From positions 1-33,470 of the forward strand of contig JAFDAM010000020.1 in the NCBI GenBank assembly GCA_019313825.1: a stretch of 33,470 bases of DNA, given 5' to 3'. Positions 6,308 to 25,793 of the stretch are shown piece after piece. The notes below the pieces were generated by a model. It searched no databases. It was not told the origin of the DNA and saw only the letters and a list, made by a program, of their open reading frames with translations. The stretch comes from Deltaproteobacteria bacterium. GTDB lineage: Bacteria > Desulfobacterota > DSM-4660 > Desulfatiglandales > HGW-15. Within the stretch, counting starts at the first letter, position 1. Each line of letters opens with the position of its first letter. A program made the translations under genes and the position numbers.

Positions 6308-6319
6308 TGGAAATTTGAG
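6296..6319 (-). terminator. Perfect hairpin flush with the last CRISPR repeat
   Basis: CTCAAATTTC (6296-6305) and GAAATTTGAG (6310-6319) are exact inverse copies, 10 bp with a 4-base loop, ending at the base before the leader-distal repeat. In the direction of array transcription (minus strand) it follows the last repeat, and a second short hairpin (6278-6290) comes next. There is no clear U tract, so termination is an inference. It could instead stabilise the 3' end of the pre-crRNA. Confidence 0.45.
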
Positions 6320-6364
6320 GTCTCAATCCCTTTCAATCCCTTCGTGATTCAGGTCAATTCCAAC
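6320..6364 (-). repeat. Terminal 45-bp repeat with a 10-bp internal duplication
   Basis: The leader-distal repeat contains TCAATCCCTT twice in tandem, making it 45 bp where every other copy is 35 bp. The duplicated block includes the crRNA handle region. Terminal repeats are often degenerate, but usually by substitutions rather than an exact tandem duplication. Confidence 0.9.
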
Positions 6365-8741
6365 GGCTTTTATTCTCTTCCTCAATGGCGACGATCAGGA
6401 AGGGTCTCAATCCCTTCGTGATTCAGGTCAATTCCAACCAGGTAAATTTAAACACTTTAACTCGGAGGGATATTAGTCTCAATCCCTTCGTGATTCAGGT
6501 CAATTCCAACAAACCAATACGGGTTGTGTCTTGGCGTATGTGATGCCGTGTCTCAATCCCTTCGTGATTCAGGTCAATTCCAACGAAAAGGAACTACACA
6601 AATACAACAGGTGGATTGAGTCAAGTCTCAATCCCTTCGTGATTCAGGTCAATTCCAACTAGTTTTTAATATTATTGATAATAGATAATATTAAGAGAAG
6701 TCTCAATCCCTTCGTGATTCAGGTCAATTCCAACACAGATGGTAGAGATTACATAAGAGATGTTTCCTTGGGTCTCAATCCCTTCGTGATTCAGGTCAAT
6801 TCCAACGGATAAGATTATGACCGATATATATAAAATCTTAGACAAAGTCTCAATCCCTTCGTGATTCAGGTCAATTCCAACTCTTTTGCGCGCTCCCTGA
6901 TTCAGCAGTTTGAGCAGAAAGTCTCAATCCCTTCGTGATTCAGGTCAATTCCAACACATCAGCATATCCCTCATAAGACCATTGTTTAGAAAGAGTCTCA
7001 ATCCCTTCGTGATTCAGGTCAATTCCAACTTTGAAGGCTTTTCTGAATTACGGACCACCCTAAAGTACGTCTCAATCCCTTCGTGATTCAGGTCAATTCC
7101 AACTAATCTCTTCCCCTGCCCATCATGGAGGTGGGTAGTGAGTCTCAATCCCTTCGTGATTCAGGTCAATTCCAACCAATCTTTAACTTGCATGCAATTC
7201 CAGCAAAGCATGAAAAGTCTCAATCCCTTCGTGATTCAGGTCAATTCCAACTTGACATACAGGCTCTTAATCAGTTGCCTGACAATGCCAAGTCTCAATC
7301 CCTTCGTGATTCAGGTCAATTCCAACATTAAAAATGTCTATACGTTAAGCATAGGCATATGTGAGTCTCAATCCCTTCGTGATTCAGGTCAATTCCAACA
7401 GACATGTACGCAAAGGCGAAGGAGTAAACTATCCAATAAGTCTCAATCCCTTCGTGATTCAGGTCAATTCCAACACACTGCTAACTTCCTTCTATCCACC
7501 CATACCTGTACTAAGTCTCAATCCCTTCGTGATTCAGGTCAATTCCAACCCATCATACAGTGGCAGAATGGACCTGGCCGGAATAAGGTCTCAATCCCTT
7601 CGTGATTCAGGTCAATTCCAACAAAGATGTTTTAAATGCAATGACCATACTGAATGGGTGGGTCTCAATCCCTTCGTGATTCAGGTCAATTCCAACTCTT
7701 ACATGTGCCAGAGTCATCGGCGAATGTATCAGGAAGTCTCAATCCCTTCGTGATTCAGGTCAATTCCAACTATGCTAGCAGGCAAATCGGTTGACATGCC
7801 TGCTAATAAGGTCTCAATCCCTTCGTGATTCAGGTCAATTCCAACCGGTTTTAAGGCGGTCCATGAGGCCCGGATGGTTGTCAAGTCTCAATCCCTTCGT
7901 GATTCAGGTCAATTCCAACTTGTCAACTCCAAGGTAATCCATCAGATAAGCCAAGTTATTGGTCTCAATCCCTTCGTGATTCAGGTCAATTCCAACTTGG
8001 AAATAGAGGGTTTTGTATTGCATACCTTGACAGCAGGTCTCAATCCCTTCGTGATTCAGGTCAATTCCAACGAAATTTCAGAGTATATCTATTGGGAGTC
8101 GGGTTGTAAGGTCTCAATCCCTTCGTGATTCAGGTCAATTCCAACGTCGGGTTGTAATATAAACGAAGCCATTGCATGGGAAGTTGCGTCTCAATCCCTT
8201 CGTGATTCAGGTCAATTCCAACAAGAAATGTGCGGTTACTGTTATCATTTTAATAGTACTTCAAGTCTCAATCCCTTCGTGATTCAGGTCAATTCCAACT
8301 AAAAGTATTCTATGCTATCGAACATAAAAAATATCGGTCTCAATCCCTTCGTGATTCAGGTCAATTCCAACGATTTATACACAGTGGATGATAACTACAT
8401 TGTGTTTGGTCTCAATCCCTTCGTGATTCAGGTCAATTCCAACTGGTGATGATATCAATCCTGTTGCTAATTTCTTTTCCTCTGTCTCAATCCCTTCGTG
8501 ATTCAGGTCAATTCCAACTGATTTTACGGAGCTTCTTTAATCCTTTACCCTGCCCATGTCTCAATCCCTTCGTGATTCAGGTCAATTCCAACACGTTGCA
8601 GGGTTTGCAGAAATTAGCTTAAGAGCAGCAGGTCTCAATCCCTTCGTGATTCAGGTCAATTCCAACCAAAGGCAAACCCCAGAGAAAAGGACAGGGTGTC
8701 TTCTGGGTCTCAATCCCTTCGTGATTCAGGTCAATTCCAAC

Positions 8742-9366
8742 CGGAATCTTCCGCCACCAAGGGGAAGATATTTTCTCTAGTCTCAATCCCTTCGTGATTC
8801 AGGTCAATTCCAACAGGGGAAGATATTTTCTCTAACGGCCACAGGACCGTTAGTCTCAATCCCTTCGTGATTCAGGTCAATTCCAACGAGAAGATATTTT
8901 TTCTAACGGCCATAGGGTCGTTAGTCTCAATCCCTTCGTGATTCAGGTCAATTCCAACGGGAGAAGATATTTTTTCTAACGGCCATAGGGTCGTTAGGTC
9001 TCAATCCCTTCGTGATTCAGGTCAATTCCAACGAAGCGAGGCAGATATCTTTTTTTATGCTTGGTACACAGGTCTCAATCCCTTCGTGATTCAGGTCAAT
9101 TCCAACGGGAGAAGATATTTTCTCTAACGGCCATAGGGTCGTTAGTCTCAATCCCTTCGTGATTCAGGTCAATTCCAACCAGGGAGAAGATATTTTCTCT
9201 AACGGCCATAGGGTCGTTAGCGTCTCAATCCCTTCGTGATTCAGGTCAATTCCAACTCACAAGAATGATCTCACTGTCTATAAACAAGATAAAGTCTCAA
9301 TCCCTTCGTGATTCAGGTCAATTCCAACGGGGAAGATATTTTCTCTAACGGCCACAGGACCGTTAG
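8742..9366 (-). other. Spacer cluster repeatedly sampled from one target region
   Basis: Spacers at 8815-8852, 8888-8923, 8959-8997, 9107-9144, 9180-9221 and 9329-9366 are near-identical. Each holds GAAGATATTTT-(C/T)TCTAACGGCC and ends in CGTTA. Their ends differ by up to 4 bases and they fall into three variants. The spacer at 8742-8779 overlaps the same region by 20 bases. Two unrelated spacers (9033-9071 and 9257-9293) lie among them. Different ends and interspersed unrelated spacers argue for repeated uptake rather than duplication of one unit. Confidence 0.85.
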
Positions 9367-9446
9367 GTCTCAATCCCTTCGTGATTCAGGTCAATTCCAA
9401 CCGCGGGCCTATGATTTGCCGTAAAATCGGGCGCTTGGCAACACAT
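9363..9446 (-). CDS. Possible 27-codon ORF running from the leader into the first repeat
   Basis: A second AAAGGAGGT (9455-9463) sits 9 bases (from GGAGG) before an ATG at 9444-9446. The frame MCCQAPDFTANH continues through the whole first repeat and stops at a TAA (9363-9365) in the newest spacer. The ribosome site lies inside the preceding small ORF, so the two would overlap. It may be accidental, because its 3' end depends on which spacer was last acquired. Confidence 0.2.
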   Translation of the reverse strand: MCCQAPDFTANHRPAVGIDLNHEGIET

Positions 9447-9636
9447 TTCCGCGTACCTCCTTTAATATTTTAAAATACATAAGTAATCACCTCCTTTCAT
9501 ATCACCTGGTTTCACTCTAAAGCACTGATAAGACAGGCAAAATATCCAGCAAGCGTACCGCAGGAGCGGCCAGCCGGACATGCTCAACAATATCAGTAAG
9601 TTATCAATTCAACTGGTACAGGCTTCAAGGTTCGCG
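9402..9636 (-). promoter_or_regulatory. CRISPR leader
   Basis: This 235-base stretch lies between the first repeat (in transcription order) and the proximal cas2 gene, where a leader is expected. On the minus strand it contains two copies of AAAGGAGGT (9489-9497 and 9455-9463), each followed by an ATG after 9 bases from GGAGG, and a 12-bp palindrome TATTTTAAAATA (9466-9477). I could not identify a convincing sigma-70 promoter. The boundary to the array is sharp at 9401/9402. Confidence 0.75.
9409..9480 (-). CDS. Possible 23-codon leader peptide in the CRISPR leader
   Basis: ATG at 9478-9480 (minus strand) is preceded by AAAGGAGGTG with 9 bases between GGAGG and the start, a near-ideal ribosome site. 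The frame runs MYFKILKEVRGN to a TAG at 9409-9411, 23 residues, rich in basic and hydrophobic residues. It ends 7 bases before the first repeat. No family is recognised. Translation is an inference from the ribosome site only. Confidence 0.3.
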   Translation of the reverse strand: MYFKILKEVRGNVLPSARFYGKS

Positions 9637-9915
9637 TCATAGCACGGTATACTCTTCATCCGGGTCAACAAGAACGCCCTGGCCGATGATCTCAATGGTG
9701 CCCGCGCATTTTTCGCATAAAGGGAAGTATTTCACCGCATCTTCAGATGCCTCTATCTCCCCCTCAATTCGGGTCTTCATTTCCGAGAAGTTCTTGCCCT
9801 CAACGTTTACCTCAAAGATGGATTTCTGCACACGCGTACCATAGTCTTTGAGCACCTTCGCCACCTTGCCAAGCCTGCGGGGTTCGGCAATATCATATGC
9901 CACGAGCATGTTCAT
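9637..9915 (-). CDS. cas2: Cas2 (proximal copy)
   Basis: This 92-residue protein has the Cas2 ferredoxin-like fold signature: the first strand with its Asp (MLVAYDIAEPRRLGKV), then GTRVQKSIFEV, and a C-terminal PLCEKC pair before a Gly-rich strand. Cas2 dimers bridge Cas1 dimers during spacer integration. It is the cas gene nearest the leader and is separated from the other cas2 by 180 bases, unlike the overlapping cas1-cas2 pair. Its translation start is embedded in a hairpin (9917-9939), suggesting independent control. An internal ATG two codons downstream is an alternative start. Confidence 0.93.
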   Translation of the reverse strand: MNMLVAYDIAEPRRLGKVAKVLKDYGTRVQKSIFEVNVEGKNFSEMKTRIEGEIEASEDAVKYFPLCEKCAGTIEIIGQGVLVDPDEEYTVL

Positions 9916-10095: not shown

Positions 10096-10371
10096 TCATA
10101 CAACCATATAATCTAACTGTGTAAGTTTTATCCCCAATCCTGATAGCTCCACCTTATTTAAACAACGTGAACAGATCTTGTAGATTCGAACGGCATCACT
10201 TTCAAGATCCAGCATATCCTTGCAAAAACGCCTGATCCTTTTGAGCGCAACATCGTCTATATCGCATTCAAAGACCGACTTCTGGGTATTCAGGCCGAAT
10301 TCCTTTAAGAAGGCATGGGTCCTTTTCAGGCGTTTCGGATCTGTAATATCATATGTTACAAATATGATCAT
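10096..10371 (-). CDS. cas2: Cas2 (distal copy, coupled to cas1)
   Basis: A second Cas2 of 91 residues: MIIFVTYDITDPKRLKR with the conserved Asp, LNTQKSVFECDID, and KICSRC near the C terminus. It is clearly diverged from the proximal copy, so this is not a recent duplication. Its ATG overlaps the cas1 stop by 4 bases (10368-10371), so the two are probably made together and this copy is the likely Cas1 partner. The 180 bases between the two cas2 genes hold hairpins but no gene. Confidence 0.93.
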   Translation of the reverse strand: MIIFVTYDITDPKRLKRTHAFLKEFGLNTQKSVFECDIDDVALKRIRRFCKDMLDLESDAVRIYKICSRCLNKVELSGLGIKLTQLDYMVV

Positions 10372-11525
10372 TTCAGCAATATGGGTTGATAAACATCAAC
10401 CTCTCCTTCTATAACTTTCCGGTAATGGCCTGCCTGAAAAATAATGGCGTCACCGTATGTAAGTTGGCGTTCAGCAGGGGGATAGAAAAATGTTGTGGTC
10501 AATTTTTTCTCAAAAGCATCTATAACCCGTTTAAAGGCCTCCTGTCTGAGTTTAACGGGGTATTTTCCGGTGACCTGGGCCGGTTGTGCAGGTGTCTCCT
10601 CCATCCTTTGTTCGGGAAGATCAAATTCTACAGATTCAGCATCGCTAACGGATATTAAACCGATGGGATCAGCAGTGACGTCCGGAGTTACCTCGGTTTC
10701 TGAATCCACGGAAGCCTTTTTTGGCGGTTCTTCCCTTATAAAATCCTCCTCCTGGAGTATATTAAGGTTAAAAAGGGACAAGGTGAGAGTTTCGGCAATA
10801 ATCGAACGGAACTCTTCCATAAGGTCGAGCACCAGGGAATAGCGCCCGTAGTCGATTGAATGGAGAAAACCCGGATACGGGTCCAGTCCAGCCACACGCA
10901 CTGCAGAATAGACCCTGTTCATCAGGAACGTGTACAGGAGGGATAACACCGCATTGACCGGATCGGTTGGCGGCCTCCGCACTCTTTTTGAAAAGTCCAT
11001 GTCCGAAACAAGGCCGCACCGGAAAACCTTGAAGAAAAGGGCGCCGCCCCTGCCTTCGTACCCACGCACGCTGTCGACACTTTCCGCGGCAGCAAGTTTT
11101 GCAAGCAGATCCTGGATCTGCGCTGCCGCATTACCAGCCTCGGGCTTCTTCCTGCTCCTCTTGATCCTCATTAAGAGCGTTGCCATATTGGAGAGCTTGC
11201 CGGCCACAATAACCTTCGCAAGTCTGAGCCCAAAATCAGGATCATCCAGCAGGCGGTACTGTCTTTTGTGAAGGAACACATTCTTTGATTCAACCGGAGC
11301 AAGCCGGCCGAGATACCTTCCGAACCGGGTGAGAAACACGGTGTCGATGTTGTTGCGCATAATCTGGCACATGGCGCTGTGTGTGATCTCGATGTTTCCA
11401 AAGAGCAGAAGCTGATCCAGCTTGTAGGTGAAAAGGGTGTTATAGATGCCATCTCCCTTCCGAACCAGCAGATGCCGCCCCTCTTTTACGATCCGCGCAC
11501 CCTGGGTCTTGACATATGCGATCAT
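10368..11525 (-). CDS. cas1: Cas1 integrase with an acidic insertion
   Basis: Cas1 inserts spacers into the leader end of the array. The start at 11525 follows AGAGGAGGCGG; the upstream in-frame ATG at 11576 has no such site. The N-terminal beta domain (MIAYVKTQGARI) leads to the catalytic helical domain: E157 in GYEGRG, H222 in GFLHSIDYGRYS, and LDLMEEFR at 233-240. The protein is 385 residues, where typical Cas1 is 320-345. The excess is at about residues 265-322, between NLNILQEEDF and the C-terminal helix VKLRQEAFKRVIDAFEKKL, and is rich in Glu, Asp, Pro and Val, so probably disordered. The shared 17-bp cas motif lies 50 bases upstream of the ATG. Confidence 0.95.
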   Translation of the reverse strand: MIAYVKTQGARIVKEGRHLLVRKGDGIYNTLFTYKLDQLLLFGNIEITHSAMCQIMRNNIDTVFLTRFGRYLGRLAPVESKNVFLHKRQYRLLDDPDFGLRLAKVIVAGKLSNMATLLMRIKRSRKKPEAGNAAAQIQDLLAKLAAAESVDSVRGYEGRGGALFFKVFRCGLVSDMDFSKRVRRPPTDPVNAVLSLLYTFLMNRVYSAVRVAGLDPYPGFLHSIDYGRYSLVLDLMEEFRSIIAETLTLSLFNLNILQEEDFIREEPPKKASVDSETEVTPDVTADPIGLISVSDAESVEFDLPEQRMEETPAQPAQVTGKYPVKLRQEAFKRVIDAFEKKLTTTFFYPPAERQLTYGDAIIFQAGHYRKVIEGEVDVYQPILLK

Positions 11526-11575
11526 AATCCGCCTCCTCTCTTTTTCTGCATTATAAGAGGAGACCTTTATATTCA

Positions 11576-11592
11576 AAGGATTGCAACGTTGC
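11576..11592 (-). promoter_or_regulatory. Shared cas-promoter motif upstream of cas1
   Basis: The plus strand reads AAGGATTGCAACGTTGC, containing the 10-bp perfect palindrome GCAACGTTGC. Very similar sequences precede cmr1 (23285-23301) and cas6 (25867-25883). A TTGACA on the minus strand (11603-11608) with 17-bp spacing puts the -10 (TGCAAT, 11580-11585) inside the motif, as expected for an operator. Confidence 0.6.
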
Positions 11593-11647: not shown

Positions 11648-12823
11648 CTATTTCATTATCTTTTCTTTTAACCACCCCTCCAAATCAGAGATTTGCCGAA
11701 GAGGTACAATTTGCGTGTTAAACAGCTTCCCCCTCTCAAGCAAATGGGGTTTAATATTCCCATTTTTATCAAGCACGTTATTTGAAGTTGTTGCCAGAAT
11801 GCCCTTTGGAGTCAAACCAAAATTCTGCCGGAGGGCTCCAAGCTTATAAAGGAAGTCATTAATTGTCCCCCCTCGTTCCTGTTTTTCGCTGCCCATGGGA
11901 GCTTTCAATGATTTACATTCTACAACATAAAGAATATTTTCGTAGGTAAAAAGCACATCATATTCGTTATCATTGCCATTGATCCTACAATGTAATCCGA
12001 GGCATATATCTGAGTTATCTCCTGGCAGGATTGATTCAATAGCCAGGAAAACCCGTTCCTCAAGCCACCCCCCTCTCAGGTAGTTCCAATCAGATGCATC
12101 AATCCTTTTCGATATAGCGCCTCCTGCGTATGCAAAACCAAGTTTACCCAGCAGGTTTTTTTCAACGGGGCTTTCAGGCAGATAGTTCATTAAAAAGTCG
12201 TATCCTTTTTTAACGTCCTTTCTTTTTAATGAACGCAGGATTCTCCCCATCTGCTGTAATAGTGGCTCAATTTCTTTGTAATGGTCAAATAAAAAATAAG
12301 TGGTATGCTTCCTGTCATGAGCTTCCTGTTTTAACTCATCGAGTATTTTTCGATTTTCTATCGAAACATTATACGCAGTCAAATATGCCTCTACTGAAAG
12401 ACGAATCGGGACAGGAATAGGGTCATTTGGCCGATGCACACGGAAATACAAATTCTTAGGTATGGGCATATAAACCATATCCGCGCCATAGCTTTTAAAT
12501 ATTTCATAAGCGGCAAGAGACATAAGTTTTGTTCCACCGGTTAAATTAGTAATAAATTGATAGTAATTTCTATTTGATTTGAGCCATTCAATTACCTTTT
12601 CATAAAAATCAGGAACCGAGCCTTCAGGGACTATAATCTTAGAGCTGTGGTTGTGATAATCCATATTAAGGATTGAAAGGCAGTTGAGAATAGCCTGAGA
12701 CTTGTTCTTCTTTTCCATTGAGGCAGTGCTTAAAAGCAGCAGGTAATCAGGGCGGATTGCAGCGGTTATTAGAATATTTGGAATAGTCTGATCACTCACC
12801 AAAGAAACCAGGCAAGTCTTCAT
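11648..12823 (-). CDS. card1: Card1/Can2-like CARF nuclease
   Basis: A 391-residue CRISPR ancillary effector. The N-terminal half is a CARF domain (LVSDQTIPNILI near the start and ITNLTGGTKLMSLAAYEIF at about 91-109), which binds cyclic oligoadenylate in this family. The C-terminal half is a PD-(D/E)XK nuclease: GGWLEERVF (about 251-259), then D289 in NEYDVLF and E302-K304 in YVVECKS. Characterised Card1/Can2 proteins are cA4-activated nickases or RNases. The start overlaps the stop of csx20 by 4 bases (12820-12823), so the effector and its putative off-switch are coupled. The intact Cas10 cyclase motif in this locus provides the expected signal. The exact specificity cannot be read from sequence. 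Confidence 0.82.
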   Translation of the reverse strand: MKTCLVSLVSDQTIPNILITAAIRPDYLLLLSTASMEKKNKSQAILNCLSILNMDYHNHSSKIIVPEGSVPDFYEKVIEWLKSNRNYYQFITNLTGGTKLMSLAAYEIFKSYGADMVYMPIPKNLYFRVHRPNDPIPVPIRLSVEAYLTAYNVSIENRKILDELKQEAHDRKHTTYFLFDHYKEIEPLLQQMGRILRSLKRKDVKKGYDFLMNYLPESPVEKNLLGKLGFAYAGGAISKRIDASDWNYLRGGWLEERVFLAIESILPGDNSDICLGLHCRINGNDNEYDVLFTYENILYVVECKSLKAPMGSEKQERGGTINDFLYKLGALRQNFGLTPKGILATTSNNVLDKNGNIKPHLLERGKLFNTQIVPLRQISDLEGWLKEKIMK

Positions 12824-13212
12824 TTCTCATACCTCCTGAAAATCTGGTGCTGAAAATGATGAGTCAGTTTAACTGATCCGTCTTGAAAAAGCTCTTCTTT
12901 TGTCTCGCGACGTGTTGTTGAATATATGGGGATAAGCCCGAGTTTGAAGGCATAATTAACCATGATATAGCATGCCCCGAAATCGCCCTGGATAAGCACG
13001 AAATCATTCTTTTCGGATTTTGTTTTCAGCCATGCCTGCACAGGTTCCAGGTATGCCTCTATTGTGGGTAAATCCGGGGGGATATTGCTCCAGATCTTTT
13101 TATGATCAGGCGGCATATCCATAATCCGTTCTACACCCAATGCATGCAGCGCGTTGGCCCTCTGGGCCTTCGTGAACGTATGGTTGAATATCAGGAAAAG
13201 TGATGTTGTCAT
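12820..13212 (-). CDS. csx20: Csx20 family protein, candidate ring nuclease
   Basis: This 130-residue protein matches the Csx20 family: LFLIFNHTFTKAQ at the N terminus, LGVERIMDMPPD, IWSNIPPDLP, VLIQGDFGACYIMVNYAF and YSTTRRET, ending in a basic tail. Csx20 occurs only with type III systems and has been proposed to be a ring nuclease that degrades cyclic oligoadenylate. It is first in a two-gene unit with the Card1-like nuclease, which fits a role in ending the signal. The promoter region upstream (13213-13278) does not carry the motif seen before the other cas operons. Confidence 0.8.
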   Translation of the reverse strand: MTTSLFLIFNHTFTKAQRANALHALGVERIMDMPPDHKKIWSNIPPDLPTIEAYLEPVQAWLKTKSEKNDFVLIQGDFGACYIMVNYAFKLGLIPIYSTTRRETKEELFQDGSVKLTHHFQHQIFRRYEK

Positions 13213-13316: not shown

Positions 13317-13336
13317 CCATCTAAAAAGAGGTGACT

Positions 13337-13597
13337 ATGCCAAAGTATCAAAAAAAGATCCAGGTATTATTGACAGAGGAGCAATTTCAGGGCCTGGCTG
13401 AAATCGCCGCGCAACAGAAAAAGAAGCTGGGCGCTCTGGTTCGGGAGGCCATCGAAGAATATCATTTAAAAAAGGCCAATCAGCGCCGTATCTCCAATGC
13501 CGTGGATCGGCTCCTGTCTTTACCTGAGCTGCCCGTTCCCGAAAATTACCAGGAATGGGAAGCGGAATACCAAAAGAAAAAGTATTCTTGCCCATGA
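13337..13597 (+). CDS. Ribbon-helix-helix antitoxin, VapB-like
   Basis: An 86-residue protein. The N terminus KYQKKIQVLLTEEQFQGLAEIA with the following KKLGALVREAIEEYHLKK is a ribbon-helix-helix DNA-binding domain. The C-terminal tail (PENYQEWEAEYQKKK) would clamp the toxin. The ATG at 13337 is chosen because AGAGGTG sits just upstream; the GTG at 13331 lies in that ribosome site. The stop overlaps the toxin ATG by 4 bases. The module faces away from the cas genes and carries its own promoter. Confidence 0.8.
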   Translation: MPKYQKKIQVLLTEEQFQGLAEIAAQQKKKLGALVREAIEEYHLKKANQRRISNAVDRLLSLPELPVPENYQEWEAEYQKKKYSCP

Positions 13598-14010
13598 AAG
13601 CTCCATCCTATCAGTTCATTGATGCCAATCTGATTATGTACTCTATCGGAGGCCCTCATCCCCTTCGCGCGCCATGCAGAATAGTACTTGAAAAAATTAA
13701 AGACGGACGCATACAGGTTGTTACTAATACTGAAGTGCTCCAGGAGATATTGTACCGGTTTTTTTCAATCAAGAGATTCTCTCAGGCTGAATCGGCATAT
13801 ACTTCAATGGTTGAACTCTGCGCGGAGATTTTTCCTGTGACGCTCCGCGACACGGATCTGGCAATGGATTTAATAAAAAAATATCCCGGCATAACCTCGC
13901 GTGATGCAGTTCATGCTGCCACTATGATACATCATGATATAAAAGAGATTCTCTCTGCCGATTCCCATTTTGATTCCATCCGGGAGATCCGGCGAGTTCC
14001 GCCGGCCTGA
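13594..14010 (+). CDS. PIN-domain toxin, VapC-like
   Basis: This 138-residue PIN ribonuclease shows the acidic set: YQFIDANLIMYSIGG (first Asp), NTEVLQEIL (Glu), and GITSRDAVHAATM with a further Asp and the LSADSHFDSI strand. PIN toxins cut specific RNAs, often initiator tRNA or rRNA. The ATG lies in an ATGA overlap with the antitoxin stop. Its position between csx20 and the other modules makes it part of a toxin-antitoxin cluster inside the cas locus. Confidence 0.85.
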   Translation: MKAPSYQFIDANLIMYSIGGPHPLRAPCRIVLEKIKDGRIQVVTNTEVLQEILYRFFSIKRFSQAESAYTSMVELCAEIFPVTLRDTDLAMDLIKKYPGITSRDAVHAATMIHHDIKEILSADSHFDSIREIRRVPPA

Positions 14011-14046
14011 ATCCGGCATTGTTTTTTCAAATGAAAATATTTATTA

Positions 14047-14091
14047 TTGACATTAACAAAATTGTAAATTAGTATTTATGTAAAATACTAA
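14047..14091 (+). promoter_or_regulatory. Promoter and operator of the AbrB/RelE module
   Basis: TTGACA (14047-14052), 17 bases, then TAGTAT (14070-14075). A perfect 9-bp inverted repeat with a 5-base gap, TTAGTATTT / AAATACTAA (14069-14077 and 14083-14091), covers the -10 and start site. It is the likely binding site of the antitoxin-toxin complex. Confidence 0.65.
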
Positions 14092-14375: not shown

Positions 14376-14376
14376 A

Positions 14377-16084: not shown

Positions 16085-17281
16085 CTAACTCTGAGGCTTA
16101 TCTAACTGGTCAATCAGTTTAGAAAGATATTTGTCCTTTTTCCTGTCAATTTTTTTGAATCCTTTTGTGCCTAATTTTTCTTTTATTGCTTTTGCTATTT
16201 CTGCCTTATCTTCAACTGTCTTAAGTTCTTTTTCTATATTGTTTACAATTTCGCCTAAGATACGACCTGTTTCGGTATTCTTGAGAAAAGATAGCTTTTC
16301 AAGCATTTTATCTAATGGTAATTTCTCCTTAGTCTCTATCAATTTTATAGAATCGCCATCAAGCTGCTTATCTTTCAAATCAGCCAGTCTTTGAATCTCA
16401 AATCTTCCGTAACCAACAGCAGTTTTTGCGCCCACTCCTTCATCTTCAAGAGCCTTTTGAAAAGCGGTCTTTAGTGGTTCGAGAAGAAAATCCGAATCCT
16501 TTGAAATCAATGCCTTAAATGTAAATACTGCTCCCGGCTTTACCGTGAGGAATTTGATGGGGGTAGGGTCAAGGTAATCAGCCGGAGGTGTTTTGTTCTC
16601 ATCGTCGCCATAATATTGGCCATAATGCGGATTGATTATGTCAACATGAAGATCGGGGACCTTGTTGGGATAGGCATCTAGAAAAATCACTTTGCCTTTT
16701 AATTTTTTTATTTTCTTTTTCCCTTCTTTTTCTTCGTCTGCGTCGCCGCCAAAAATAGCAGGTACTAAAGTTTTCAAATTGGATTCAATGATATATTCAC
16801 CATCTTTATTTGAAGCTCTATAATCAGACAGATTGTCACTTTCGATCAGTTCCAGCATATGTGCAAATCTTACAATTCCTTTAACACTGGATGCAGGGAG
16901 ATAAGGAATCCCGATAGTATGGTCAAAAACCATCCCAATTTCATACGGATGAGTCTGGCCGATTCCGGTTATCAATGGAGTTTTAAGTTCTGCTTGATAG
17001 TTAATAATTTTATAGCCTGCGTTTTCATAAAATTCGCAAAATTGTTTTTGGTTCCTTTGCTTTTTATCAAGAAGGTTTTTAAGTGTTTTGTTGGTTTTTA
17101 ATCCATTGTAGATGGATTCGTAATATTGAACCGCTTCTTTATCATTACCGCGTTGATTACACGGCTTGCATTTAGTTGCATTATTCAGGGGGATCAGTTT
17201 ATTAAACCACAGGGAAAAATTGCCCTTACTAAACGATTTGGCAACCGTCTGAAGTTGATTGCTATATGGATAAAACATCAT
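16085..17281 (-). CDS. cmr6: Cmr6, Cas7-like subunit of the type III-B complex
   Basis: A 398-residue RAMP protein at the end of the cmr operon. LITGIGQTHPYEIGM, GIPYLPASSVKGIVRF, the Gly-rich LHVDIINPHYGQYY and the final RAMP signature GVGAKTAVGYGRF identify Cmr6, which caps the backbone near the 3' part of the crRNA. A long charged helical C-terminal tail (about residues 325-398) is unusual in length. Two ATGs at 17281 and 17278 follow GGAGG, and the second has the better spacing. The C-X2-C in the N-terminal part (TKCKPCNQ) may bind metal. Confidence 0.93.
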   Translation of the reverse strand: MMFYPYSNQLQTVAKSFSKGNFSLWFNKLIPLNNATKCKPCNQRGNDKEAVQYYESIYNGLKTNKTLKNLLDKKQRNQKQFCEFYENAGYKIINYQAELKTPLITGIGQTHPYEIGMVFDHTIGIPYLPASSVKGIVRFAHMLELIESDNLSDYRASNKDGEYIIESNLKTLVPAIFGGDADEEKEGKKKIKKLKGKVIFLDAYPNKVPDLHVDIINPHYGQYYGDDENKTPPADYLDPTPIKFLTVKPGAVFTFKALISKDSDFLLEPLKTAFQKALEDEGVGAKTAVGYGRFEIQRLADLKDKQLDGDSIKLIETKEKLPLDKMLEKLSFLKNTETGRILGEIVNNIEKELKTVEDKAEIAKAIKEKLGTKGFKKIDRKKDKYLSKLIDQLDKPQS

Positions 17282-17288
17282 ACCCTCC

Positions 17289-17696
17289 TTATAGGTCGGC
17301 GTTTGCGTATCTTTTTACCCATTCCAACAAAGCAAGCGTCTCTTTTTGGGCTGTAAGGTATTTAAGCTGATCCATACCGGATAATTGTCTAATGAAATCT
17401 GTGCGGGTTTTGGCTTTGTCCTTTTTTAAAAATCTGTTTTTCACATCATCCTTTACAAAGGGGAGCCATTTCCAAATCATATCAAATAAAACAATATGCT
17501 TATCTTTTTCTTTTATTTTCAAATCCTTATCAGTCCCCTTTGAAAGCCAGAACGCTAGTGCCTGACCAAAACCATTTTGAAGGATCATTGAAGGTGCACC
17601 TGCGGAAAAAGATTTGAAATCTTTCTTTTTGTCTTTAGGTATGGCAAGCACTTCTTCCAAAGCAAACTCTGCTCTTTTCTGCCCAAGTGTTCTCAT
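17289..17696 (-). CDS. cmr5: Cmr5, small subunit of the type III-B complex
   Basis: A 135-residue, all-helical, basic protein of the Cas11 type. MRTLGQKRAEFALEEV and APSMILQNGFGQALAFWLSKG match Cmr5; the C-terminal helix KYLTAQKETLALLEWVKRYA is also typical. It forms the inner filament that contacts target RNA and Cmr4. Its start overlaps the cmr4 stop by 4 bases. Confidence 0.93.
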   Translation of the reverse strand: MRTLGQKRAEFALEEVLAIPKDKKKDFKSFSAGAPSMILQNGFGQALAFWLSKGTDKDLKIKEKDKHIVLFDMIWKWLPFVKDDVKNRFLKKDKAKTRTDFIRQLSGMDQLKYLTAQKETLALLEWVKRYANADL

Positions 17697-18613
17697 TTTG
17701 CACCTCCTAGGTTCCAGTCAAGTTTACATATCCCCTTTCCAAGGGTTTCATCGCCGCCGATCTGGATGAACCCTTTTACAGTATCTTCCACATGGTTTTT
17801 TATCATCTCAGCATTCATGTCTTTTACCAGATCAGCAAGCAGATTTTGCTTATCATCATTTTTTATTTCGCCTAGGTTTCTTCCACTGTAGTGAACAATG
17901 GCGTATAAAATAGAATCAGCCGGTAAAAATTCTTGATACCTTAGTGCACCTTCTTCGGCAGTTCCTGTTTTTGAACTGATCTTAATGTTTGTTTGGATTT
18001 CAGTGCAGGATGAAATAGCATAATCGAACATTTCATCGGAGATTAGAATCAGCCTTTTCAGTTCGGAAAAATATTCTTTAATAAAGGCTTTGTCTTTGAT
18101 GCCGTTTTTAACATTCACAACTGCATCCTCGATAATAACATCACCATTAAGATTTTCTTCTCCGATATTAAATGCGTTATCGTTTTTTATTTCATATTCA
18201 TCAGTTATCATTTCCATACCAATATATTCCAGATCGGTTTGCAGTCTTTTAAGAATATACGGACATGTAACCCAAACAAAGGGGGCGATATTTGAGCGCA
18301 TAGGAAATGCCAATAGCCTGGCATCGGATACCGACATTGCGCCAGGCAAACTATCAATGTCATTTCCCCAGCCGTCCTGCTTATCAGAGCCAAAAAGCAG
18401 ATTTATGAGCTGGATATCATTACTTTTATCGCAGAACTGTCTGAAATGTGCCCTGAACGCCCCTTTTATGCCGGATGCCTGGATGTGAGGGTAGTTCGTA
18501 TGCCGTTCCCTCTGAATCGGCAAGTCAACGGCAGATGTTGATGCGCCGCTGCCGGCATGGATCGGTGACACCGCATAAAATCTACAAATTGAACACAACT
18601 CTTTTTTCAGCAT
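17693..18613 (-). CDS. cmr4: Cmr4, backbone subunit and target-RNA nuclease
   Basis: A 306-residue Cas7-type RAMP protein. VSPIHAGSGASTSAVDLPIQRERHTN contains the Asp (AVDLPIQRE) that in characterised Cmr4 proteins cuts target RNA every six bases. QASGIKGAFRAHFRQF and the insert GSDKQDGWGND/GAMSVSDARLLAFPMRS are family features, and the C terminus has FIQIGGDETLGKGIC. Its catalytic Asp is present, so periodic RNA cleavage is expected. Confidence 0.94.
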   Translation of the reverse strand: MLKKELCSICRFYAVSPIHAGSGASTSAVDLPIQRERHTNYPHIQASGIKGAFRAHFRQFCDKSNDIQLINLLFGSDKQDGWGNDIDSLPGAMSVSDARLLAFPMRSNIAPFVWVTCPYILKRLQTDLEYIGMEMITDEYEIKNDNAFNIGEENLNGDVIIEDAVVNVKNGIKDKAFIKEYFSELKRLILISDEMFDYAISSCTEIQTNIKISSKTGTAEEGALRYQEFLPADSILYAIVHYSGRNLGEIKNDDKQNLLADLVKDMNAEMIKNHVEDTVKGFIQIGGDETLGKGICKLDWNLGGAK

Positions 18614-18624
18614 AACTGCCCTCC

Positions 18625-19569
18625 CTATATCTGTATGAAATTATTATTTAGTTTTTTGTTAAAAATGCTGCCAGGAGGAAAAAATCCTGTCATTGGCTTG
18701 TGAAAGCCCCTTTTCATATCCCATCCTCCCAAATATTGGATTTTCCCGGTTGCAACAACAGCTTCGTTTGACTGCTTTGTGCCTGCTGTCTGCGATATAG
18801 ACATAAACAAACCTGAACCGCTCGCGATAAAATTAATATCCGGCATCTTGCTGTATAATCCGAACCTTTGTTCGGCCCCCAGGTTCAAGACCCCGTTATC
18901 TGAAATCGGTAAGGCCCTATCCACACCGAATATCAGGTTTACATTTTTATTGAGCCTTGCATGACTGAAAGCGTATAAGTGATGAGGCCTCACACTTCGA
19001 TTACTGTCAAGGGCAATGCCTGTTCTGTTTTCCTCATGAAAAAAAACATGAATCTCTTTTATGAAAACAGTATTTTTATGAGAGTATAAGTCGGATAAAG
19101 AAATCCATTTTCCGCCCAGAGTTTCCAGTTCACTTTGTTCACCCTTCGCCCAAAAAAGATTTTTTAAAGAGGTTTTTATCAAGCGGCTGTTTATCAGACG
19201 ACTTTTATATATCTGCAATGGCATTTTTCCTCTATCATTCTTTTTACCATTATCCTTATCGCAAAACCACGAATAAGGCGCCGGCACATAGAGCGTATCG
19301 TTCAAGCTGAATAAAGGCCCAATAATCGAAAAACCTGCCTTTTTATCCGCTGGGCCGATTATGTCGAGCAACTTGCCGTCAATACTGTTGTCATAATACT
19401 GCTCAATCGATATTTTATTCTGCTTAAGGATTGTGGTTCTTAACGCGCCTTCCATGGTATGTGCAGGCGGCGGGAAATTGGCTGTTGCGGTATGATTTTC
19501 TCCCATATTCATAGGTCCGGCTCCCTTAAAAAACAGAGTATCCGCTGGCTTAAAACTATACCAGTTCAT
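18625..19569 (-). CDS. cmr3: Cmr3, Cas5-like subunit holding the crRNA handle
   Basis: A 314-residue protein. WYSFKPADTLFFKGAGPMNMG, TANFPPPAHTMEGALRT, SNRSVRPHHLYAFSHARL and the glycine-rich end YLGGWDMKRGFHKPMTGFFPPGS match Cmr3. It anchors the 5' handle of the crRNA and pairs with Cas10 at the base of the complex. Its ATG overlaps the cas10 stop by 4 bases. Confidence 0.93.
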   Translation of the reverse strand: MNWYSFKPADTLFFKGAGPMNMGENHTATANFPPPAHTMEGALRTTILKQNKISIEQYYDNSIDGKLLDIIGPADKKAGFSIIGPLFSLNDTLYVPAPYSWFCDKDNGKKNDRGKMPLQIYKSRLINSRLIKTSLKNLFWAKGEQSELETLGGKWISLSDLYSHKNTVFIKEIHVFFHEENRTGIALDSNRSVRPHHLYAFSHARLNKNVNLIFGVDRALPISDNGVLNLGAEQRFGLYSKMPDINFIASGSGLFMSISQTAGTKQSNEAVVATGKIQYLGGWDMKRGFHKPMTGFFPPGSIFNKKLNNNFIQI

Positions 19570-22268
19570 TGTTTACCTCCCTTGTCGGCGATAAATCCGG
19601 CTACAATCAAGCCTTCAGGCTCAAAAGACGGTTTTCCGTTCGGATCTTTGATTACGATGATATTGACCATTTGTTTTGCAAAATCTTCAAGTTCTTCCTT
19701 GCTATTTTTTCCTGCAGCCAGCATGGAACGATCAAGCTGCTTTTTAATAAAACCGGTTAAAAGATTCTTATAATTATCTTTTTTCAATATTGCTTCTATT
19801 CCGGATCTGAAATGCTCAAGCCTGTAAACTAGTGAAGCGGAAATTTCCTTTTTGTTCTTGTTGCTTATTAAATCTCCGATCCGGTGAAAGGATTCCCAGG
19901 TTTTATTATCCTCCCATTTACTTGCAAAATATCGCGATCCGCCGGAGCGTTTTCTAAGCTCAATGGCGCAGGCATTGCGTCCTGTTTCTGTTTTGGCTTT
20001 TTCGTCCAGAAGGTGATGAGCCCTTGCAATCATTTGAGATAAATTTTCCTTATGGTGACAAATCAGAATACCGGCAGAGATGGAAATAAGATCGCCTTCT
20101 CCCAGACAGGCAGACATTTTCCCGGGTTCCGCATTCCATGTATTGCTGATTGTTTCATTTTTCTTATCTGAAATAATCCTGAAGAAGGAGTTATAATATC
20201 CTTGTATCTCCTCTGCGGTTTTTAATACCGTATCAACCGGTAAAACAGCGCAAATATCATCTCCGCCCGCATAAATCAGCCTCCCGTTATTATTTCTTAT
20301 GATGCTATCGACTCCGTAAATGGAAAAATCCCCCAATGACTCCGATATAGCCGCATGAATAGATGGCGTAAGAAGCCGTTGATTATGTTTATCGAATATG
20401 AGTTCCCATGTTGTCCTGAATTTTTCGTCAAATTCAGGCTGTTTCAGTCTATCCACAATTTCAGGATGGATCACTGACTCCCATGTTGACGCAAGGGTTT
20501 CGCCGTTGACCAGCTTGCCCATATGATCGCCGTCCATAATAAGAATGGCATAATACCTGTCCCGGTTTTCCGCCTTTTCATCAGGTTCGTCGTGAGCTTT
20601 TTGAGCGATTTTGTATTGTTCTTCTTTCTCGGTTACACCCTCTCTTTTAAACTTATTGTAAAAGGCCAGCTGAGTTGTTGACGGGTAATGATCCATACCT
20701 TCAAAGCTGCTGCAAAGGATGTGGTCTTTTTCTTTTTGCAGTGCTTTGTATGCTATTCTTTTGATAATGCATACCGAGCAAAGCCTTTCGTTTTCATTAA
20801 AATCATATTCAGCCAGCCATGATTTGTTAAGATTATCCCAAAATTCCTTAATATTCTTTTTATACTTTTTAGCGCCATCGCCCGATTTATGAGCCGTTGA
20901 ATGCAACACCTCAAATTCACCGCAAAGGTGACATTTTTCACCCGGTTCCGGCGATCGCGCAATCTTTTTTTGTGACTTCTGGGCTGCCAGAGCTGATTGA
21001 ACCAGGGCATGCGACACTGAGTAAAGCATGCCGCGGCCGCTGTTTTCATAATAGGGCTTATCCTTGATTAACTCATTAAATATTTCCAGCACCTTATATT
21101 GCTTTGCATAGCTTTTTTCCGCCTGAAGGTCTGAAAAATCATCTTTGTCGTCCTTGTCCAAGAGCTTGACAGCCGACCATTGAAGATCCCAGTAGTTTGA
21201 ATTTTGTCTTTTGAAAAGTTCCTTTATGTGTGTATGTTCTCCCAGAACAATTGATAAAATATGGTTTTCAACAATCTTGCTCAATTTTAGCCACGCGTTT
21301 TTGATATGTCCGGAAAGATCTTCACCGATGGTTTCCACCAGAGTTAAAGGCACAAGAAAAAGAAATTTGTTCGGAAAAGATGCTATCCCCTTTGCCTTGT
21401 TATATGATGAAACGTTTCCTGTTTCCCATTTTTGTTTAAGGTATTCGTTAATCAAAGGCTGATCTATCAAAGACGGATACAGGATATGATCCGGCCCTAA
21501 ATTTTCAATAACCCAGCGGATACCTTCAAAGGCCAGCCAGGATAGCAGAACCGATCCGGTCCAGTAATCCCTTAGTTTTCTTGCCTTGGCAATAAATACC
21601 TGAACCGGGGTGACGCTGAATACCATCATGCCGATTTGACTTGCATCCTTTGCCATATCCATACATGAATATAATGCCGAAGTAAGGGCATTGTGCTGCC
21701 AGATGGAGTGATCGGGGAACCTTGAATCAGCAGGGAGCCTGTGCCATAATGCGCCAATTTCAGCCACATTTTTTTCGGCCAACCTGAACCTGAGTACGAG
21801 GTGTGTGTATAAAAAGCGCGCCATCGCAAATCCTTCAGGATCATCTTTGAATCTGGCAGAATAACCCCCTTCACCTGCTTTTACACCGATATCCTCCCGT
21901 AAAAAATCTAGCAGTTCCGCACCAATACTACCCTCGTCTTCTCTTGAAAGACTTTCCGGCAGGTTAATGGTCAGTCGAGATTTATTTGAAGTAGGGTGTG
22001 TTATTATCGGATTTTTCAAAAAATCCACAGCGCCGTTCAAATTCGAATTCTTGCTGTAAGTCGGCACCTGGCCTCTCTCAAATCCAGCGGCAATGCTGTC
22101 GGCTTTTTTCCAGAATTCATCACTTGGTTTTTGAAGGCCAAAAACTTCAAGCTGTTTCGCTCCTCGCTCTTCATGCCCACGTATTTGGAAGACCTTATCA
22201 ATCGGGTCGTGCATATAGGCCGCGAATTTGGCATCCCAGTAACCGGTATCTGGTTTTTGAAATTTCAT
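19566..22268 (-). CDS. cas10: Cas10 (Cmr2), cyclic-oligoadenylate synthetase subunit
   Basis: A 900-residue large subunit. The N-terminal HD-type site is visible as YMHDPIDKVFQIRGHEE (H20, D21). A zinc site follows (CHLCGEF and RLCSVC). The first palm domain has LIMDGDHMGKLVNG. The second has the cyclase motif GGDD at residues 668-671 (codons 20256-20267) in LIYAGGDDICAVLP. With an intact GGDD, target-RNA binding should trigger cyclic oligoadenylate synthesis, the signal for the CARF proteins of this locus. Overlaps of 4 bases with cmr1 upstream and cmr3 downstream show a single transcript. Confidence 0.96.
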   Translation of the reverse strand: MKFQKPDTGYWDAKFAAYMHDPIDKVFQIRGHEERGAKQLEVFGLQKPSDEFWKKADSIAAGFERGQVPTYSKNSNLNGAVDFLKNPIITHPTSNKSRLTINLPESLSREDEGSIGAELLDFLREDIGVKAGEGGYSARFKDDPEGFAMARFLYTHLVLRFRLAEKNVAEIGALWHRLPADSRFPDHSIWQHNALTSALYSCMDMAKDASQIGMMVFSVTPVQVFIAKARKLRDYWTGSVLLSWLAFEGIRWVIENLGPDHILYPSLIDQPLINEYLKQKWETGNVSSYNKAKGIASFPNKFLFLVPLTLVETIGEDLSGHIKNAWLKLSKIVENHILSIVLGEHTHIKELFKRQNSNYWDLQWSAVKLLDKDDKDDFSDLQAEKSYAKQYKVLEIFNELIKDKPYYENSGRGMLYSVSHALVQSALAAQKSQKKIARSPEPGEKCHLCGEFEVLHSTAHKSGDGAKKYKKNIKEFWDNLNKSWLAEYDFNENERLCSVCIIKRIAYKALQKEKDHILCSSFEGMDHYPSTTQLAFYNKFKREGVTEKEEQYKIAQKAHDEPDEKAENRDRYYAILIMDGDHMGKLVNGETLASTWESVIHPEIVDRLKQPEFDEKFRTTWELIFDKHNQRLLTPSIHAAISESLGDFSIYGVDSIIRNNNGRLIYAGGDDICAVLPVDTVLKTAEEIQGYYNSFFRIISDKKNETISNTWNAEPGKMSACLGEGDLISISAGILICHHKENLSQMIARAHHLLDEKAKTETGRNACAIELRKRSGGSRYFASKWEDNKTWESFHRIGDLISNKNKKEISASLVYRLEHFRSGIEAILKKDNYKNLLTGFIKKQLDRSMLAAGKNSKEELEDFAKQMVNIIVIKDPNGKPSFEPEGLIVAGFIADKGGKQ

Positions 22269-23233
22269 CGTGAGTCTCCTGATAATTCCAGTATTTTTTG
22301 ATTCACCTGCTCGCAGGCCTGAAAATATTCTTCTCTTTTGCCTTGTTTATAATAGTTGTAAGGCATATAGAGAATCTGCCCCTGGTGTTTTCCATCATGT
22401 AGCTTGTTTACATGCAGGAAGTAAGGTTTGGAGTGTCGGTCATTAATATTAACCTCACCTTTAACAATTAAGGGTTTGGCTATCAGTGATCTTTTTTCAA
22501 AAACATGTTTATTCTCAAGGTTATTTCGAGCTTTCCTGTATACTTTCCCAATTTCAGATAATGCATCTTCCCATTTATCTTTTGGGGTGAACTTCTCGAA
22601 AAGTTTTGTCATTTCGGAGAAAGCCGTGTAAGATTTCATGGTTCCTTCATTTTTATATCCTATCGATGATTTTTTCGAACTAATTGAGCCGAATCCATTT
22701 CTTGAACGTGATCCCAACCCGCCAAAATTAATAAGGACTTTAAATGAGTTAAGGATTTCATCCTTTTTAAAATTGTCATAAAACCTTAATACAATCTTGA
22801 ACCTACTCCCCGCAGGTATATGCTCTTTTACATATATGTTTCTTTTAAACTGTTTATTGTATTCGCATAAACCGTATGCAAGGTACTCGATAATAGATAT
22901 TTTGAACGTTCTCCCTTTACTCGTTGTTGGAACCTTAATTCCCTGTGGCAGATCGGCCAAGACTGAATTTGCATTTTGGGTATCTTTTATGTGCAAAGAA
23001 AAGCTTGCTTTTTTAGCTATCGAGCCAAAGATTTCCGCCTCTTGACTTTTCATGTCAGCCAGGTTTTCAGACCCATACAATGCCCTCCACCAGAACCTGA
23101 GTGCGCCTTTAATTGAAGGAACTCGAAGTTCAGCTTTTTTAGGGTCAGCGCCGCCGAGGAAGAGAGGCGTGATAATTTCTATATCAAAATTTTGACTCTC
23201 AATTCCTTTAAACCGTGAAATATAAAATGACAT
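22265..23233 (-). CDS. cmr1: Cmr1, Cas7-like subunit at the distal end of the complex
   Basis: The first gene of the cmr operon, 322 residues from the chosen start. FDIEIITPLFLGGADPKKAE, LRVPSIKGALRFWWRALYG, EAEIFGS and the late GGLGSRSRNGFGS are signatures of Cmr1. ATG at 23233 is preferred to 23239 because GGAGA sits 7 bases before it and directly against the other. The shared cas motif lies 51 bases upstream, almost the same distance as in cas1. Confidence 0.93.
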   Translation of the reverse strand: MSFYISRFKGIESQNFDIEIITPLFLGGADPKKAELRVPSIKGALRFWWRALYGSENLADMKSQEAEIFGSIAKKASFSLHIKDTQNANSVLADLPQGIKVPTTSKGRTFKISIIEYLAYGLCEYNKQFKRNIYVKEHIPAGSRFKIVLRFYDNFKKDEILNSFKVLINFGGLGSRSRNGFGSISSKKSSIGYKNEGTMKSYTAFSEMTKLFEKFTPKDKWEDALSEIGKVYRKARNNLENKHVFEKRSLIAKPLIVKGEVNINDRHSKPYFLHVNKLHDGKHQGQILYMPYNYYKQGKREEYFQACEQVNQKILELSGDSR

Positions 23234-23284
23234 TTTCATTCTCCGTACATAATTATTATTGTCTATCGTAAAGCGGATTTAAAC

Positions 23285-23727: not shown

Positions 23728-24852
23728 TCAGAAAACTATCTCTATCTTCCCCTTATCCATCCGAATCCCATACCTGGTGTTGGGTCTTGCACCCTGTGAC
23801 GCGATCTCAAGGTCTTTCAGCGAGTATGGTCCGAAACTTTTCAAAAGATCGCTTTTGATCTTGCCCTTGTACATGTTGAAGTTTTCAGAGCTCAGGCCTG
23901 TTATTCCGGTATCACTCATTTCATCAAGGGGCCTGCCCGTGGATATCTTTTTGTAGAGATCGGTGATCTTTCTCTGTCTTTCAAAGATGGTCTGGATATC
24001 CAGAAAACAGTCCGTGCAACTGCCGCAGTTATCGACTTCCTTTGTACATTCTTTTTTCTGCATGATAAAAAACGAATACAATGCCAGGTGGGCGGGCATC
24101 ATATCCATTTCAAGCGACCGGTAGGTGATCTTTCGGTTGATAAGGTTCACGGTCAATGAGGTTTTTTCTTCCCTGATCAGGGAAAGCATCAGTGTGCCCG
24201 GGTCTTTTGGTTCCTTAAGAAAATCAGCCGACAAGTGGCTGCGGATTGATACAAACGGAATGTGTATAAGATCGACTTGCGCGTATGCGGCATCCTTATA
24301 AAACGGCCGGCCCTTGTTGTCTTTCAGCTCGATCTGCCTTGATGTTTTCGGCGGATAATAGAAATCCCGGTTGCTTTCAAATTCAGGAGATACAAGCACG
24401 TGATAGATCCTGTCCTGCGGCCGGCCGTACATCTGGGCGGCCAGCGTGAGACACGAACTCATTGTTTTGCGGCCGCCCGCAACGGAAAAGAGCACGCTCG
24501 TATCAGGAGAACGGGTAAAATTAAAAGAAAGCTCCAGGCATTTTCTGAGTAGATGTTCGTTGTCGGATTCATTGGAGATATCCGGGATCTCGACTCCATG
24601 CTCGTCCGTGATCACGTGAATATTGCGATGCGAAAAATCAATACTGTTTGGATCGATCCCGTACTCATCAAGGTACCGGTAATAATGGCCGCCTTGTTCC
24701 GCCAGGAGGCCGGTGTAAATCATGTCCTTTCCGTCCCGCGTGGTTATCACATGAACGGCGTCTATTCTGCGCGAACTCTGGTGGAGCGCGAACAGGGTTT
24801 CAGTCACGACCTGTGGACTTAGACCGGTAACGGCCAGCAGTATATTTTTCAT
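23728..24852 (-). CDS. NE0113-family CARF protein
   Basis: A 374-residue type III ancillary protein of the Cas_NE0113 family. The N-terminal CARF domain shows ILLAVTGLSPQVVTETLFAL, HVITTRDGKD and SVAGGRKTMSSCLTLAAQMYG, where the ligand loops lie. The remainder resembles a winged-helix region (MMPAHLALYSFFIMQKKE). A four-cysteine stretch, ECTKEVDNCGSCTDCF (about residues 267-282), could bind zinc or an iron-sulphur cluster. No HEPN RX4-6H motif is seen. Related proteins have been linked to ring-nuclease or regulatory roles. Its ATG overlaps the cas6 stop by 4 bases. Confidence 0.8.
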   Translation of the reverse strand: MKNILLAVTGLSPQVVTETLFALHQSSRRIDAVHVITTRDGKDMIYTGLLAEQGGHYYRYLDEYGIDPNSIDFSHRNIHVITDEHGVEIPDISNESDNEHLLRKCLELSFNFTRSPDTSVLFSVAGGRKTMSSCLTLAAQMYGRPQDRIYHVLVSPEFESNRDFYYPPKTSRQIELKDNKGRPFYKDAAYAQVDLIHIPFVSIRSHLSADFLKEPKDPGTLMLSLIREEKTSLTVNLINRKITYRSLEMDMMPAHLALYSFFIMQKKECTKEVDNCGSCTDCFLDIQTIFERQRKITDLYKKISTGRPLDEMSDTGITGLSSENFNMYKGKIKSDLLKSFGPYSLKDLEIASQGARPNTRYGIRMDKGKIEIVF

Positions 24853-25793
24853 GATACCTTCTCCGCCTTCATCTTTCCCAGACCAAATGATGTCTGCTTG
24901 CCCAGATGAACTTTGGAGCAGAGATCGACAAGTGGCATATATTCACCGATTTTACCTTCATAGGTGATCGAACCCACCATGCCGCCCATGAGCATCGACT
25001 GTTCCTGTCGGAAGGAATAACGTCGCCAATCATACCATCTGAGGCTGTCTTCCACGATCCTTATCTCTTCTGACCTTTTGACAAGTCCCCTGTAGTCCAG
25101 TTCGGGTTCGCCTTCACCATAGCATTCGAAAAGCGAAGAAACCCTGCGCAACATAGCCCTTACCAGGACATGAAAAGGCAGATCGGCTTTAAGCCTGTTT
25201 TCAAATTTAAGGCGCATAGGGGTGACCATGTTTACTTTGAGCCTGAAGCTCTCTTGCGGCGAGAGATCCGCGGGTAAAAGGGAAATGTGCTCAAAAGTAT
25301 CGCCAGCGCGCAATTTCCGTTCGCTGCTGTTATAAACAGGCTTATCTCCAACCATTACAGACTCAAGTTTAAATAGTCCTCTTTTCCCATTAAGCCTTCG
25401 GCCTATGCCGATCTTTCCCATCTGTTCAAAGGCATAGATGAAATATGGGATACTATGGTTAACATCTCCAAAGAGCAGCAGGTTAAAATCAAAGGAGGAC
25501 CCTTCCTGAAAGTGAATGTCCGTATTGAGCGGAGGCTCGATGACAAAGGGGTTCGGTGGTCCTGAAATCCTTGCCCCCCTGGATGATTCTTCAGGTAATG
25601 GTTTTTCAAACACAACTGAGTATAAACATTTCCTGTTAAGCAAACACTGTCTGCACTCCTGTCTCTTAAGCGCACAGACAACGTTTTTCAGGGCATGGCC
25701 AAATGCTCCTCGAAATGTGGAGCCTTTGAAATACGGAAGCAGCGCATCGCTTGTAAGGCGGCATACGAGATGATATTTTCCGAAAAGCATCAT
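24849..25793 (-). CDS. cas6: Cas6 pre-crRNA endonuclease
   Basis: A 314-residue RAMP protein of the PF10040 Cas6 type. DALLPYFKGSTFRGAFGHAL at the N terminus is followed by a cysteine cluster (CALKRQECRQCLLNRKC), FEKPLPEE and PPNPFVIEPP. The C-terminal RAMP part has MGGMVGSITYEG and the Gly loop HLGKQTSFGLGKM. It would cut pre-crRNA inside the repeat to leave the ATTGAGAC handle. The catalytic His cannot be fixed by eye. The ribosome site is weak, and ATG at 25790 is an alternative. Confidence 0.9.
   Translation of the reverse strand: MMLFGKYHLVCRLTSDALLPYFKGSTFRGAFGHALKNVVCALKRQECRQCLLNRKCLYSVVFEKPLPEESSRGARISGPPNPFVIEPPLNTDIHFQEGSSFDFNLLLFGDVNHSIPYFIYAFEQMGKIGIGRRLNGKRGLFKLESVMVGDKPVYNSSERKLRAGDTFEHISLLPADLSPQESFRLKVNMVTPMRLKFENRLKADLPFHVLVRAMLRRVSSLFECYGEGEPELDYRGLVKRSEEIRIVEDSLRWYDWRRYSFRQEQSMLMGGMVGSITYEGKIGEYMPLVDLCSKVHLGKQTSFGLGKMKAEKVS

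Follow-up and report, generated by a model that had tools for sequence, protein, structure and literature searches.

Repeated sampling of one hairpin-bearing target in the newest spacers of a type III-B CRISPR array from a deltaproteobacterium

Results

The type III-B locus and its CRISPR array

The window, by which we mean the whole stretch of DNA analysed (33,470 nucleotides of contig JAFDAM010000020.1), belongs to a deltaproteobacterial genome (GCA_019313825.1) of 2.27 Mb, held in 158 contigs and 65% complete, and carries a complete type III-B (Cmr) locus on its minus strand, with an array, its own cas1-cas2, and cas6 (Table 1). The genes follow one another on this strand in the order cas6, NE0113 CARF protein, cmr1, cmr2/cas10, cmr3, cmr4, cmr5, cmr6, Csx20, and Card1-like CARF nuclease, continuing with cas1, two cas2 genes, the presumed leader, and the array. 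Assignment to type III-B is based on Cas10/Cmr2 together with Cmr1, 3, 4, 5, and 6, all of which score over the cut-off in Pfam, NCBIfam, and PADLOC, with no type I effector found among the proteins of the locus that were scanned. The adaptation module is free of reverse transcriptase, with Cas1 matching Cas_Cas1 only and no RVT_1 domain found across the source genome at its 65% completeness.

The fixed gene order of cas1 followed by cas2b and cas2a is also seen in loci L159-L162, L164, L165, L250-L252, L261, L272, and L288. Each of the two cas2 paralogues has its own orthologue in related III-B loci (up to 78% for cas2a with cas2a, and up to 82% for cas2b with cas2b), and this points to an integrase that may contain two different Cas2 subunits. 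The gene for the Card1-like CARF nuclease (11648-13212) adjoins that for Csx20, the NE0113-type CARF protein lies at 23728-24852, and the locus likely carries several cyclic-oligoadenylate proteins. Small toxin-antitoxin-like genes occupy the interior of the cas locus between Csx20 and cmr6 (13331-15862), among them a PIN protein (13555-14010) and a HEPN/nucleotidyltransferase pair (15177-15862). Just past cas6, the opposite strand encodes a large protein (26421-30221) that resembles AddB and has a PD-(D/E)XK nuclease domain; AddAB has been reported to help type III-A adaptation in other systems (PMC9048733).

The crRNA strand of the array is the minus strand, and the end of the repeat on that strand, ATTGAGAC, together with the diverged oldest repeat at 6330, places the newest spacers at the right. 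All repeats are identical apart from this oldest one, which has two differences. In the stretch 6319-6364, which takes in this oldest repeat, the bases adjoining the repeat resemble an incomplete further copy of its end (GGTCTCAATCCCTTTCAATCCCTTCGTG). Further into the array, the neighbouring spacers 18 (8072-8110) and 17 (8146-8187) have 12 nt in common (TTACAACCCGAC) at their facing ends, as if they were overlapping stretches of one target.

Table 1. Coordinates of the array, its newest spacers, and the cas genes in the window.
Feature	Coordinates	Strand	Description
CRISPR array	6330..9401	-	41 spacers between 42 repeats of 35 nt (minus-strand repeat GTTGGAATTGACCTGAATCACGAAGGGATTGAGAC); the leader is at the right-hand end
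Spacer 9	8742..8779	-	Exactly 20 nt overlap with spacer 8; covers the neighbouring second hairpin
Spacer 8	8815..8852	-	Hairpin target, haplotype A
Spacer 7	8888..8923	-	Hairpin target, haplotype B1
Spacer 6	8959..8997	-	Hairpin target, haplotype B1
Spacer 5	9033..9071	-	Unrelated to the hairpin target
Spacer 4	9107..9144	-	Hairpin target, haplotype B2
Spacer 3	9180..9221	-	Hairpin target, haplotype B2
Spacer 2	9257..9293	-	Unrelated to the hairpin target
Spacer 1 (newest)	9329..9366	-	Hairpin target, haplotype A
Presumed leader	9402..9636	-	Assigned by position only (newest repeat to the end of the nearer cas2); the diverged far-end repeat agrees
cas2a	9637..9915	-	PF09827, E = 2.3e-21
cas2b	10096..10371	-	PF09827, E = 4.1e-19; 30% identity to cas2a
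cas1	10368..11576	-	PF01867, E = 5.2e-83, the sole Pfam match; without a reverse transcriptase domain
cmr6, cmr5, cmr4, cmr3, cmr2/cas10, cmr1	16085..23239	-	Complete III-B effector module
cas6	24849..25793	-	PF10040, E = 1.6e-16

One target in seven of the nine newest spacers

Spacers 1, 3, 4, 6, 7, and 8, counted from the leader, all correspond to one protospacer of ~38 nt, and with spacer 9 they make up seven spacers of the same strand, covering a target of 58 nt (GCTAACGRYCCTRTGGCCGTTAGARAAAATATCTTCYCCYTGGTGGCGGAAGATTCCG). This occupancy of seven of the nine leader-proximal positions by six near-identical spacers and one overlapping by 20 bases had been described in the original prediction, and is confirmed by the array coordinates. 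On a common reference the six copies start at positions 2, 1, 3, 2, 3, and 3 (a span of at most 3 nt) and end at 39, 42, 40, 40, 38, and 40 (at most 5 nt). Even if all nine spacers were drawn from a single 1-kb element, the probability that six of them would begin within 2 nt of one another on the same strand is bounded at 8e-12, and coincidence of uptake sites can be excluded.

No two of the six copies are identical, and they fall into three haplotypes, with A found at 8815 and 9329, and at 8742 over its overlap, B1 at 8888 and 8959, and B2 at 9107 and 9180; B1 and B2 are separated by a single-base difference. From old to new the order of uptake is A, A, B1, B1, B2, B2, A, which bears out the predicted passage of three variants from A to B and back to A. 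The haplotypes are not significantly clustered in time (p = 0.14), and their grouping is suggestive at most.

Duplication of a repeat-spacer unit would reproduce the ends of a spacer exactly, yet the ends differ, and repeated independent uptake of one target is consequently well supported for the six copies, but not proven. The original prediction had likewise read the differing ends as several uptakes rather than simple duplication, and this holds on closer comparison, with each same-haplotype pair differing at both ends and identical spacers with identical ends, the mark of unit duplication, not seen among the six copies. Furthermore, some terminal bases cannot derive from the neighbouring unit: those of spacer 3 are absent from both spacer 4 and the repeat, so that spacer 3 was not made from the unit of spacer 4. 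No same-genus genome, and with it no sister array, was found among the relatives searched.

Hairpin structure of the target

The protospacer begins with the palindrome CTAACG(GT/AC)CCT(G/A)TGGCCGTTAG, in which 8 of the 9 pairs are Watson-Crick in each version, and the base of this hairpin coincides with the spacer edge. A second hairpin lies 7 nt further on, within the stretch sampled by spacer 9. Almost no dinucleotide shuffle folds as well as the hairpins do (z of -2.6 to -4.7), and the protospacer folds well as DNA or RNA. With the base of one hairpin at the spacer edge and the other sampled by spacer 9, structure is a likely reason for the uptake hot spot. The palindrome noted in the original prediction is real, however it was given no role there, whilst a role in the hot spot appears likely here.

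Compensatory changes in the stem between haplotypes A and B are not supported, with each keeping its 8 of 9 pairs and the weak pair placed differently. No known RNA family was found at the target, where a chance match to GP_knot2 fell far under the gathering score, and no intrinsic terminator is called at the site by the rule of the tool used. Two older and unrelated spacers, 37 (6660-6699) and 22 (7771-7810), consist almost wholly of perfect hairpins, of 10 and 9 bp respectively.

Search for the invader

The original prediction had proposed searching with the spacers for their source, and the search was run against viral, plasmid, and GTDB contigs, with no copy of the protospacer found in IMG/VR, INPHARED, PLSDB, the GTDB contigs, or, outside the array, the organism's own genome. 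In IMG/VR, exact searches with degenerate patterns for the hairpin, the linker, and the second hairpin gave nothing, or chance matches that do not extend, as did spacers 2, 5, and 22 and the overlap of spacers 17 and 18. The whole array used as a query against INPHARED and PLSDB returned weak chance matches only, and the GTDB contigs yielded four 20-mer matches, none of which extends into the hairpin. Self-targeting was considered and set aside, with no convincing match in the organism's own genome outside the array.

Comparison with other arrays of the phylum

Comparison loci were taken from the surroundings of cas1 or cas10 in genomes of the same phylum, with arrays classed by their repeat, giving a final set besides the window of 32 type III arrays (651 spacers) and 42 type I-C arrays (1,246 spacers), or 74 arrays and 1,897 spacers in total. 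Re-sampled targets occur in arrays of both types, with the largest cluster comprising 2 spacers in type III and 3 in type I-C, compared with 7 in the window. The I-C arrays resemble the window array in holding near-identical spacers with slightly different ends within one array; however, their re-sampled spacers have a mostly fixed 5′ end (offset 0), as expected with a PAM, whereas both ends vary here. All ten re-sampled pairs of the type III arrays share one orientation, as do all seven window spacers, a pattern that fits selection for spacers directed against transcripts.

In type III arrays that adjoin a cas1 of their own, 6.6% of spacers contain a stem of 7 bp or more, compared with 3.2% in I-C arrays (odds ratio 2.1, p = 0.003). 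The comparison is exploratory, its contrast being stronger in the first set and weaker with further controls. The array-level test of type III against I-C gives p = 0.017 on one set and p = 0.11 on the broadest. This modest excess of hairpins is consistent with a preference for structure, without proving it. An array of the same family with seven spacers (L249 of genome G006) mirrors the window array in miniature: two of its spacers are differing versions of one hairpin target, and a further spacer also forms a hairpin. The position of hairpins inside the spacers of other arrays follows no clear rule by eye. Arrays rich in hairpins also occur outside type III, as seen in the type I-C array L224 of genome G098, where an unusually high number of spacers, 9 of 83, have stems of at least 8 bp.

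Discussion

The reading that we favour, with a probability of roughly 0.55, is that a recurrent element supplied Cas1-Cas2 with the same hairpin-bearing fragment on several occasions. The III-B module, with its Cas1 and two Cas2 paralogues and no reverse transcriptase, would have taken up one short hairpin fragment on six or more occasions, and on a single occasion an overlapping piece that includes the neighbouring hairpin. The DNA of the invader may fold on itself when single-stranded, for instance at a replication or transfer origin or where a strand is displaced by transcription. Such a folded strand would resemble a duplex prespacer substrate and make the site a local hot spot, and the base of the hairpin would help to set the spacer end. 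The three haplotypes would then represent sequence versions of the element encountered over time, and selection for transcribed targets may contribute to the strand bias. These versions may be lineages of the invader that followed one another or copies inside a single multicopy element, the two readings offered in the original prediction. The tandem hairpins prompt a guess at a rolling-circle, conjugative, or single-stranded DNA element.

The closest known system is the type III-A Cas1-Cas2 of S. thermophilus, also without a reverse transcriptase, which, unlike type II, is described as preferring single-strand origins, oriT, attenuators, and other hairpin-rich DNA, and as using no PAM (Zhang et al. 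2021, as reported in PMC9048733). In that account, as here, uptake is focused on partly palindromic hairpin DNA; however, the S. thermophilus work it describes is an experiment with plasmids and host DNA, whereas the present case is one natural III-B array in which a target has been sampled six to seven times in three versions. Uptake from RNA by RT-Cas1, as in Marinomonas (PMC11014452), is likewise a type III process with a one-strand bias, but was rejected here, with no reverse transcriptase found in Cas1 or in the 65% complete source genome.

Among the alternatives we give most weight, whilst still considering it unlikely, to a hot spot created by a free DNA end (a nick, cos, attachment, or transfer site) or by a short multicopy element of very high copy number, the hairpin then being either coincidental or a component of that site. 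The six spacers vary little at either end, as though a discrete fragment had been captured, and type III-A adaptation in S. epidermidis is raised by free DNA ends (PMC9048733). However, there is no sign of a DNA end or of high copy number, with the target absent from all collections searched, and spacer 9 extends across the right-hand boundary of the set. Additionally, a free end partly merges with the favoured capture of a hairpin-bearing fragment, as nick and transfer sites often bear hairpins.

More tentatively still, the hairpin may act as a structural decoy, yielding a discrete fragment, its two ends determined by structure, that is recaptured by the III-B Cas1-Cas2 with its two Cas2 paralogues. 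Guide and target would both fold on themselves, resulting in poor immunity, the return of the element in new versions, and the rewriting of the same weak memory.

It is doubtful that the set goes back to a single acquisition, or a few, copied when repeat-spacer units duplicated or recombined, with ends and bases altered later. Haplotypes do sit in neighbouring pairs (spacers 6 and 7, and 3 and 4), replication slippage is a known duplicator of repeat-spacer units (PMC9048733) and likewise leaves a repeated spacer within an array, and exact duplicates, often adjacent, are present in the comparison arrays. Units duplicated by slippage are identical, however, and none are here; the differing ends of each same-haplotype pair and the end bases of spacer 3 speak against duplication, as do the unrelated spacers interspersed in the set, and recombination between identical repeats shifts entire units without trimming them.

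Broad uptake, after which selection kept only spacers against one transcribed spot, appears improbable as the whole explanation. In Thermus thermophilus, whose type III systems also lack a reverse transcriptase, a strong strand and position bias of phage-derived spacers came from selection (PMC7515739), and the single orientation of the seven window spacers and of the ten re-sampled type III pairs elsewhere would agree with this; selection could account for part of the pattern here, as it does for the Thermus strand bias. The Thermus bias, however, narrowed spacers to a 6.6-kb early region, whereas the focus here is a single 38-nt site that shifts by only 3-5 nt, and it is unlikely that the best protection would come from a guide that folds on itself, aimed at a target that does so too. 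In a second strain of Thermus, an offset copy was read in that study as independent uptake (PMC7515739), by the same reasoning as is applied here. An assembly artefact joining strain variants of one unit is very improbable, for although the genome is a metagenome assembly of 158 contigs and 65% completeness and near-identical units of ~73 nt are difficult for short reads, assemblers usually collapse rather than multiply such units, and every unit here is distinct, with complete identical repeats on either side and unrelated spacers between.

Repeated capture of a hairpin-bearing fragment suggests self-folding DNA as a possible preferred entry point for type III-B memory. If this is true, the array is a natural record of one hairpin taken up at least six times, and the structure preference seen for type III-A in the laboratory extends to III-B in the wild. 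The 58-nt target in its three versions, together with a defined module, would allow a direct test of prespacer choice without a PAM or reverse transcriptase, and also of the protection that such memories confer.
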